DNA from: Niabella drilacis
Lineage (GTDB): Bacteria > Bacteroidota > Bacteroidia > Chitinophagales > Chitinophagaceae
Direction of reading: 5' to 3'
Assembly (NCBI RefSeq): GCF_900101395.1
Contig: NZ_FMZO01000005.1
Location: 62,001-126,000, forward strand
DNA length: 64,000 nucleotides
This document shows, piece by piece, positions 11,467 to 13,695 of the stretch; the first letter of the stretch is position 1, and every line of letters begins with the position of its first letter. The notes below the pieces were generated by a model. That model was given only the letters and a program-made list of their open reading frames with translations, did no database searches and was not told the DNA's origin. The translations under genes were made by a program, and so were the position numbers.

Positions 11467-11503
11467 AGTAATAATGGTAGTAAAACCAGTAATCTGTATA
11501 CCA
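11467..11503 (+). promoter_or_regulatory. operator copy 1, upstream of aldo-keto reductase
   Basis: A 37-bp site matching 13659-13695 at 32 of 37 positions. It contains AGTAAT-like repeats and a near-inverted TGGTAG...ATACCA pair. Twenty bases after it lies GAACTTTG (11524-11531), a -7 box one base off TAnnTTTG. The predicted transcription start falls roughly 20 bases before the reductase ATG. Probable activator site for the divergent AraC protein. Confidence 0.7.
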
Positions 11504-11557
11504 ATAGCCTCATTTTCAGATCGGAACTTTGCACTATTCAATTAAAAAGCACAAAAA

Positions 11558-12541
11558 ATGAAAAAAAGATTTTTGGGAAATAGCGGACTGGAAGTATCTG
11601 CATTAGGTTTAGGGTGTATGGGGCTAACATTTGGTTATGGGCCTGCTACAGCAGAAGCTGATGCCCTCTCCCTGATCAGGAAAGCTTACGATTTGGGCGT
11701 TACATTTTTTGATACCGCTGAAGCCTATAGTCAGGGAGGAAATGAAGTTCTTTTAGGGAAAGCGGTACAATCTTTTAGAGACCAGGTTGTAATTGCCACA
11801 AAATTTGGTTTCAAAGACGGGGATTCATCCAAGGGACTGGACAGCCGTCCGGAACGTATACGTCAGGTGGCGGAAAATTCATTGAGGTATTTGAATACGG
11901 ATTATATCGATCTTTTTTACCAACACAGAGTAGACCCGGATGTGCCCATCGAAGAAGTTGCCGGAACCATCGGAGACTTGATCAAAGAAGGTAAGATTCG
12001 GTATTGGGGGCTATCAGAAGCCGGAGTGGAAACCATCCGCAAAGCGCACGCTGTGCAACCGGTTGCCGCCTTACAAAGCGAATATTCATTATTCTACCGT
12101 GAACCCGAAACAGCGATCATCCCCACGCTCGAAGAGCTGGGTATTGGTTTTGTACCGTTCAGTCCATTGGGCAAAGGGTTTTTAACTGGGGCTATTGATG
12201 AAAACACAAAATTCGATCCATCTGATTTCAGGAACATCGTTCCCCGTTTTTCTGAAGAAAACCGGAAAGCCAACCAGGCCTTGGTAGATCTGTTGAAAGC
12301 CATTGCTGCTGAAAAGCAGTCCACACCTGCGCAAATAGCATTAGCATGGTTACTGGCTCAAAAAACCTGGATTGTCCCCATTCCGGGCACAACAAAAATG
12401 CACCGGTTGCAGGAAAATGTAGGGGGTGCTGATATTCACTTGAATAATAGCGAATTGGCGGGTATCGGTGAAGCGCTGAAAGATATCGAAATTGTAGGGG
12501 CAAGGTATCCTGAACATTTACAAAAACGAGTAGGAAAATAA
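11558..12541 (+). CDS. aldo-keto reductase
   Basis: A 327-residue NADPH-dependent oxidoreductase of the AKR superfamily that reduces aldehydes or ketones in the cytoplasm; it has no signal peptide. Family features: [19 protein letters not shown] at the N-terminus, catalytic Asp and Tyr in [14 protein letters not shown], Lys in IATKFGF, and His in [18 protein letters not shown]. The cofactor site includes [14 protein letters not shown]. It looks closest to the general AKR11/13-type stress reductases. First gene of the run controlled by the AraC regulator and the only one of that run predicted to stay in the cytoplasm. The next gene begins 25 bases downstream. Confidence 0.92.
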
Positions 12542-12565
12542 AATTGTATAGTAACTATTAATAAA

Positions 12566-13663
12566 ATGAAAAGGAAAACAGCAGATTATAAACAAATGGG
12601 CAAACAGCGATCTGGTATTTATTTATTGGTAATTCTTGTATTTGGCATTGCATCTTGTGTGTCAACGAAACCACATTCAAGTGGCAATTTGATCATTAAA
12701 CAGCAAGGGGCGTTTTCGGCAGGTGGTACGGTGGTTAAAAGTGAAGGTGAATTCGATGCCTTAAAACCGTGGAATGTGCAGCAGGGCGGGCAAACCCGGC
12801 ATGGCGACCATGCTGATGTTTTTTACCAGATTCCTGAAAATGCAAAACGCTATTCAATGGTATTCCTACACGGCTATGGTCAATCCCGCCGCAGTTGGCA
12901 AACTACTGCCGATGGCAGAGAGGGCTTTGCTGATATTTTCTTGCGAAAAGGATATGGAGTTTATCTTGTTGACCAGCCGGGCCGCGGCGATGCAGGACAA
13001 ACCACAAAGCCGGGACAAATCACAGCAACACCTGATGACCAAACCTGGTTTACGCAATTTCGTATAGGTTTGTATCCCAGTTTTAACGAAGGTGTACAAT
13101 TTCCAAAAGACGAAAAATCGTTGGATCAGTTTTACCGGATGATGACGCCTAACACCGGAAATGTAGATGAATCAACTATCGTCAATGCCATGTCGGCCGT
13201 TTTTGATAGAACGGGTGATGGCATCTTGTTTACCCATTCCGCCGGCGGTTCTCCCGGTTGGAAAACGGCTATCCAAAATAGCCGGGTAAAGGCCATCGTA
13301 GCCATAGAGCCGGGCGGATTTACTTTTCCCGAAGGCGAAGTTCCTGAAGGTAATCGTGGTGGTAAAGGTGTGCCGCTTAACGAGTTTTTGAAATTAACCA
13401 AAATACCTATCGTGATTTACTACGGCGACTATATACCCAAAGAAGAAACCAACGCGGCTTCGCTTAACTTTTGGCGTAATGTGCTGGCCACTGCAAGGCA
13501 ATGGGCAAAAGTTGTAAACGCGCATGGCGGTGACGCCACCATTGTTCATTTGCCGGAAATAGGGATTAGGGGCAATACACATTTCATCATGTCAGATTTG
13601 AATAATGGTCAAATCGCCGACCAGTTATCCAAATGGTTACAACAAAAAGGACTGGATAAGTAA
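12566..13663 (+). CDS. exported alpha/beta hydrolase lipoprotein
   Basis: A 365-residue alpha/beta hydrolase-fold protein. After a polar N-terminus comes a hydrophobic segment ending in the lipobox LVFGIASC, so it is probably a lipoprotein. The body has the oxyanion-loop motif FLHGYGQSRRSW, nucleophile elbow THSAGGSPGW (Ser), an acidic segment near YYGDYIPKEE and a His in GNTHFIMSD near the C-terminus. It acts on an unknown ester or lactone. It follows the aldo-keto reductase by 25 bases, and its stop lies inside the second operator copy, so it ends the first transcription unit. Confidence 0.85.
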   Translation: MKRKTADYKQMGKQRSGIYLLVILVFGIASCVSTKPHSSGNLIIKQQGAFSAGGTVVKSEGEFDALKPWNVQQGGQTRHGDHADVFYQIPENAKRYSMVFLHGYGQSRRSWQTTADGREGFADIFLRKGYGVYLVDQPGRGDAGQTTKPGQITATPDDQTWFTQFRIGLYPSFNEGVQFPKDEKSLDQFYRMMTPNTGNVDESTIVNAMSAVFDRTGDGILFTHSAGGSPGWKTAIQNSRVKAIVAIEPGGFTFPEGEVPEGNRGGKGVPLNEFLKLTKIPIVIYYGDYIPKEETNAASLNFWRNVLATARQWAKVVNAHGGDATIVHLPEIGIRGNTHFIMSDLNNGQIADQLSKWLQQKGLDK

Positions 13664-13695
13664 TATTGGTAGTAATTCCAGTAATCCGTCTACCA
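13659..13695 (+). promoter_or_regulatory. operator copy 2, upstream of flavodoxin operon
   Basis: A 37-bp site matching 11467-11503 (32/37). It contains three AGTAAT units (13659, 13671, 13680) and a perfect inverted pair TGGTAG-N17-CTACCA. A -7 box GAACTTTG at 13716-13723 begins exactly 20 bases after the site, the same spacing as copy 1. It overlaps the last codons of the preceding hydrolase gene. Confidence 0.72.

Follow-up and report, generated by a model that had tools for sequence, protein, structure and literature searches.

The gene cluster and its regulator

The window, which is the whole 64,000-nucleotide stretch of DNA that was analyzed, carries a gene for an AraC-family regulator at 10508..11401 on the minus strand. 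Its probable start is the ATG at 11401, which gives a protein of 297 aa with matches to Pfam HTH_18 (1.1e-19) and HTH_AraC (4e-16). An alternative 318-aa ORF with a TTG start runs through the gene's own predicted promoter. On the plus strand, divergent from araC, lie genes for an aldo-keto reductase (AKR; 11558..12541; PF00248, 7.5e-76), an alpha/beta hydrolase (12566..13663; PF12697, 7.4e-9), a flavodoxin (13733..14395; Flavodoxin_4, 1e-19) that from its sequence is perhaps a lipoprotein, a second alpha/beta hydrolase that resembles dienelactone hydrolase (14438..15499; PF02129, 1.2e-9; DLH, 4e-9), a DUF4440/SnoaL-like protein (15513..15959; PF14534, 3.9e-17), a carboxymuconolactone-decarboxylase (CMD) family protein (15983..16720; PF02627, 1.9e-16), and a cupin protein (16738..17232; PF07883, 2e-10). 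The cupin protein scored 136.9 bits against the NCBIfam mandelonitrile-lyase model, slightly below the cut-off of 140. A PAS histidine kinase and a response regulator are encoded ahead of araC (8848-10398, plus strand), and no tie between them and the regulon was seen.

Relatives of the AKR in the PDB are perakine reductase, IolS, and general stress protein 69. These likenesses, together with the flavodoxin, the CMD protein, and the hydrolases, suggest that the cluster serves carbonyl or electrophile processing, as in the YqhC and AdhR systems discussed below. The gene content does not point to one particular substrate.

Two matching sites at the same distance from a -7 box

Two 37-bp sites were found in this cluster, and their placement agrees with the first-pass annotation. 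The first, putative operator 1 (11467..11503, plus strand), lies between the divergent araC and AKR genes, and its half-sites of the form CNGTAAT-N5-TA fall at about 11466-11480 and 11487-11501, with a 21-bp period. The second, putative operator 2 (13659..13695, plus strand; half-sites at about 13658-13672 and 13679-13693), is internal to the gene cluster, contains the stop codon of the first hydrolase gene, and precedes the flavodoxin gene and the genes that follow it. Direct comparison confirmed that the two sites are identical at 32 of 37 positions, and that the sequence GAACTTTG is located exactly 20 bases past the end of each site, at 11524..11531 and at 13716..13723 on the plus strand, where it would form the -7 boxes of the AKR and flavodoxin promoters. 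With up to 3 mismatches allowed, a pattern drawn from both sites matched the window at these two positions and nowhere else, and it gave no match in 100 dinucleotide-preserving shuffles of the window. The site pair is not a product of chance. The flanking sequences are dissimilar (7/30 positions identical upstream, 7/20 between site and box, and 25/60 past the box), so the pair did not arise by recent duplication of a longer segment, and it is mainly the operator and the box that the two places have in common.

A scan of the whole genome with the 37-bp pattern (up to 3 mismatches) returned three matches, namely the window pair and one at G000:C16:42963-42999 on the minus strand, compared to none in the reversed control of the genome. 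A weaker additional site at C16:39727-39795, minus strand, was detected with the sequence-only profile described below. The profile built from the sites at the araC loci scored operator 1 at 56.6 bits and operator 2 at 45.6 bits. A 16-base skeleton was also scanned with up to 3 mismatches and rejected as uninformative genome-wide (73 matches versus 228 in the reversed control); its three perfect matches in the genome are the same sites as those found with the 37-bp pattern.

Conservation and architecture of the putative operator

The AraC protein was used to scan for relatives, and the best 80 of at least 589 were kept as loci. These are 64-77% identical to it over the best segment and come from records named as Bacteroidota groups, together with one MAG labelled KSB1. 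Together with the window and the duplicate locus in the same genome, they made up a set of 82 upstream regions. Every one of these 80 best loci has the operator ahead of araC, with the best skeleton match (11-16 of 16 letters) located 58-87 bases ahead of the inferred araC start. Mononucleotide shuffles reached a skeleton score of at least 13 in 8 of 820 cases. Five loci scored 12 (L114, L109, L104, and L078) or 11 (L070), which is not distinct from the shuffles; in all five the site is at the usual position and has a profile score of at least 28.4 bits (the value for L109). The profile was built from the sites that it scores, and leave-one-out scores ranged from 17.8 to 56.4; as a control, 2.29 Mb of loci that had been reversed or complemented gave no match of 10 bits or more. 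The locus from the MAG labelled KSB1 (L085) has the site and lacks TTTG at the usual offset; it may represent a transfer or a mis-binned contig.

The consensus over the 82 upstream regions is TCAGTAATATTGGTAGAAAAATCCGTAATCTGTATAC. When the sites were compared with themselves at shifts of 5 to 29, a shift of 21 was the only one with a mean weighted self-match above 0.6, and at least 7 of the 8 chosen repeat positions were matched in 62 of the 82 regions. A 21-bp direct repeat is thus the main symmetry of the operator. The motif had initially been described as AGTAAT repeats combined with a TGGTAG...CTACCA symmetry. The AGTAAT repeats are conserved across the upstream regions, while the inverted symmetry holds in part: TGGTAG is exact in 58 of the 82 regions but CTACCA in only 3, and among the six inverted pairs, five were kept in 26/82 regions and four in 29/82, but all six in none (0/82). 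Two of these pairs come free with the TA that is common to both half-sites. Since the outer GG/CC pairs are frequently retained too, some of the inverted symmetry is real, but a purely palindromic reading was rejected as a description of the main symmetry.

Geometry of the predicted promoters

The distance between the operator and the -7 box was determined from the position of TTTG after the operator in the 82 regions. It was found at exactly +24 in 65 regions, at +23 in 3, and at +25 in 1. When similar regions were removed, TTTG was at +24 in 48 of 65 regions, compared to a mean of 0.3 at other offsets. This spacing is therefore preferred. On the araC side, TTTG occurred at one offset in 59/82 regions, and the window's own offset differs from it. 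The predicted araC -7 box in the window, GGAGTTTG (11427..11434, minus strand), was assigned from its sequence, and the box of the duplicate araC gene is also GGAGTTTG.

The two sides differ in the first letters of the box. Among target-side boxes with TTT at the expected offset (n=72), these letters were GA in 51, TA in 11, and CA in 10 (GA 40, CA 10, and TA 5 in the thinned set), while the araC-side boxes, counted at any of six allowed offsets (n=69), had TA in 67 and GG in 2. Compared to the Bacteroidota sigma-A -7 consensus TAnnTTTG, the TTTG lies at a fixed offset in 65/82 regions, but only 11/72 targets have TA as first letters. Few promoters of either side have TTG in the -33 zone (6/72 for targets and 7/69 for araC). 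The weak target -7 box is read here as a likely sign of activator dependence.

In Flavobacterium psychrophilum, the -7 box is described as spanning -12 to -5 (PMC9723704). If the boxes of the window are placed in the same way, transcription of the AKR gene is predicted to start at about 11536, and operator 1 would then span approximately -69 to -33. The predicted start of the flavodoxin transcript is at about 13728. This would leave a very short leader before the ATG at 13733, so the ATG at 13745 is the likelier start of flavodoxin.

Co-occurrence of the site and the regulator

To follow the site and the regulator across genomes, a sequence-only profile was built from 63 of the 82 araC-adjacent sites, the window's included; the 19 sites left out were near-duplicates or had a shifted or absent box. 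The profile and the AraC protein were each run on the same 99 genomes, the window's own included, which may overlap with the training loci of the profile. A site at E<=1e-3 was found in 23 of the 99 genomes. The computational check proposed by the first-pass annotation came out in favour of the pairing: where a genome encodes an AraC at least 57% identical to the query (22 genomes), a site at E<=1e-3 was always present, compared to 1 of the 77 others. Both cut-offs were set after the lists had been seen, at a gap that runs from 51 to 57%. No site reached E<=1e-3 in the 21 genomes whose paralogues are all at most 51% identical; one of them, G013, has a partial match at 0.005. Matches only between E 0.003 and 0.0084 occurred in 6 genomes without a close orthologue. 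With the site profile alone, 18 of 247 genomes of the phylum, again including the window's own, had a site at E<=1e-4.

A hand count showed that all 29 AraC genes with at least 57% identity adjoin a site. This number includes one gene in G002 that has a stop, and a further fragment in G024 was left out. In these two places, the AraC copy has an in-frame stop (G002:C3:196169-196927, L168) or is only a fragment (G024:C15, L164), and the operators nearby persist. The remaining genome with a site at E<=1e-3 is G016 (C93, L165), where a good site precedes an AKR gene and a close AraC was not found in the genome; no AraC was detectable on the contig over about 2.2 kb past the site. As this genome is 90% complete, loss of the AraC gene and a missing contig are both possible.

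The regulator protein and its paralogues

The C-terminal DNA-binding domain of AraC proteins is present in the regulator (PF12833 and PF00165 above cut-offs), and fold matches agree. The structure model (mean pLDDT 84.8, pTM 0.64) consists of a cupin-like N-terminal domain and an AraC DNA-binding domain; a Pfam search of the N-terminus gave no match. With Foldseek, Rns, CsvR, and ToxT matched most of the chain at a TM of about 0.3 and an rmsd near 20, values which indicate that the domains are placed differently. The N-terminal domain matched the RhaR regulatory domain (5u93_B, TMt 0.72) and AraC (1xja, 2arc, and 2aac, TMt 0.53-0.62). Orthology with E. coli YqhC was considered and rejected, as the similarity is limited to the HTH (25/80 residues identical).

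The first-pass annotation had predicted that one adjacent regulator controls both units. The pairing of regulator and site is supported, but the profile finds four sites in the genome, which encodes three AraC proteins (100, 92, and 58% identity), and the other two AraC genes also have sites of their own. The 92% duplicate is located about 30 kb away, divergent from an AKR gene and with its own operator, while the site of the 58% paralogue is a variant one, located upstream of an acetyltransferase-like gene. With three AraC genes and four sites, the regulon is probably common to at least two regulators.

Genes downstream of the sites

To determine which genes follow the sites, a survey was performed on 110 sequences (the first 20 kb of the window, the stretch L003 with the duplicate, the 80 loci, and 28 fetched stretches) with sites of at least 20 bits. 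For araC-adjacent sites (n=104), the first gene encoded an AKR in 48 cases, the abh1 hydrolase in 11, DUF4440 in 8, cmd in 2, cupin in 2, abh2 in 2, araC in 1, and another product in 22, and none was found in 8. For sites scored as not araC-adjacent (n=35, 2 of which, in L164 and L175, actually adjoin an AraC fragment or gene), the first gene was an AKR in 13, flavodoxin in 9, cmd in 5, cupin in 2, abh1 in 1, and another gene in 4, with no ORF found in 1. A homologue of a cluster gene is therefore downstream of 30 of the 35 sites, and in 4 of these 30 cases the assignment is to an AKR at 26-34% identity only. Most of the 35 sites lie within clusters, and cluster-type genes are expected there anyway. 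More telling are the sites in 5-6.5 kb stretches that contain no araC, which precede AKR genes in G023, G008, and G022 (L160-L162). The expectation that the sites would recur only beside the regulator thus does not hold, since these few lie away from any araC. A weak site at G011:C20:45000 precedes no such gene.

As the first-pass annotation required of orthologous loci, the close relatives G008 and G011 have retained both of the window's sites. In these two genomes operator 2 again precedes flavodoxin, as it does, farther off, in G002, and the flavodoxin-side site recurs in loci L049, L050, L069, and L091.

Proposed mechanism and alternatives

Taken as a whole, the sites are very probably operators of an AraC-family activator of carbonyl- or electrophile-processing genes. 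The activator would be the product of the divergent araC gene, and probably also of its 92%-identical duplicate. Two AraC subunits would occupy the two head-to-tail half-sites, which, being 21 bp apart, lie on one face of the helix. As the promoter-proximal half-site ends at about -33, the bound regulator could substitute for the -33 element and bring RNA polymerase to the weak GAnnTTTG -7 box. Site 1 would drive transcription of the AKR gene, perhaps with an effect on araC as well, while site 2 would act as an internal promoter from which flavodoxin and the following genes are expressed. The signal may be a reactive aldehyde, a quinone, or a similar electrophile, as the enzymes suggest. The sites themselves, their repeat form, preferred spacing, and conservation, and their co-occurrence with the regulator are computed results, while binding by AraC, activation rather than repression, and the nature of the inducer are what we infer.

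The same AraC protein could instead bind the sites and repress, or have a dual role with its own gene as the main target. Such a role would suit the location of site 1 between divergent promoters, at approximately -81 to -45 of the predicted araC start, and the araC-side -7 boxes, which are near the consensus and have a preferred offset. It is nevertheless unlikely, because the target-side position of -69 to -33 and the weak GA boxes fit activation, and because targets with no adjoining araC also have sites. The scarcity of TTG in the -33 zone of the targets is not decisive, since it is shared by the araC side.

Binding of the sites by another regulator that travels with the cluster has a very low probability. 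The link between AraC and the sites is drawn from sequence comparison, and G016 has a site where a close AraC was not found. Against this, the site follows AraC orthologues in every one of the 22 genomes and adjoins every close AraC gene, it is absent at the same cut-off from the genomes with distant paralogues only, the remaining neighbours vary between loci, and the repeat form suits AraC proteins. Equally improbable is that site 1 is the only real site, with site 2 being a nonfunctional copy that is decaying or arose by chance. Site 2 does have the lower score and overlaps the stop codon of the upstream gene, yet its site and -7 spacing agree with those of site 1 in spite of different flanks, and it is kept before flavodoxin in the relatives and loci named above. 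Finally, strong conservation near genes might point to a coding or RNA element instead of a protein-binding site, but this can be practically dismissed, because the block precedes the predicted starts in both directions, its columns repeat at a 21-bp period, and site 2 overlaps a stop codon; an RNA element was rejected, as an Rfam search of window positions 10000-18000 gave no match at gathering scores.

Relation to known systems

The activator mechanism proposed for AraC at these sites is ordinary for AraC proteins, and no description of the operator or the regulon was found in the titles and abstract openings listed by searches of the open-access literature. To our knowledge, few regulator-operator pairs are known in Bacteroidota outside of carbohydrate use. 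The predicted sites of the rhamnose regulators of Bacteroides, Bacillales, and Enterococcus, which are also AraC-family proteins, have the same 21-bp tandem repeat period; the regulator of Bacteroides thetaiotaomicron is described there as positive, and each regulator group as having its own motif (PMC3870299). The likeness drawn here is one of family and repeat period, and the rhamnose regulators serve sugar catabolism, in contrast to the carbonyl/redox-type enzymes of the window. In E. coli, as in the window, a divergent AraC-family regulator, YqhC, is found by aldehyde/aldo-keto reductase genes (yqhD-dkgA; PMC8262776). YqhC is an analogue that works alike rather than an orthologue, and its gene cluster differs from that of the window. 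The AdhR regulon of B. subtilis, which responds to methylglyoxal or formaldehyde, also includes a carboxymuconolactone-decarboxylase gene (PMC4776306), but AdhR is described as a MerR-family protein.

A broader reading, which we hold only tentatively and with slightly more doubt than belief, is that the sites belong to a carbonyl-stress regulon that extends over the whole phylum Bacteroidota and has so far not been described. Just as tentative is the fixed, activator-dependent promoter design that forms part of it, in which the tandem operator ends at -33, the target box is a weak GAnnTTTG, and the regulator's own box is TAnnTTTG. If true, this design would provide a sequence rule for spotting activator-dependent promoters in Bacteroidota. 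The regulator, operator, and promoter geometry can be read together across many genera, and this offers a ready test of how an activator acts with the unusual sigma factor of this group. The probable aldehyde or quinone sensor could also serve as a reporter.

The duplicate AraC-AKR pair and the third AraC gene are located outside of the window, at G000:C16:39-44 kb (L003). A tyrosine integrase gene follows the cluster in the window (17350-18723, minus strand), and broken integrase pieces similar to it lie beside the duplicate copy (L003:9070-10412, minus strand). These remnants suggest that the module moved with a mobile element.
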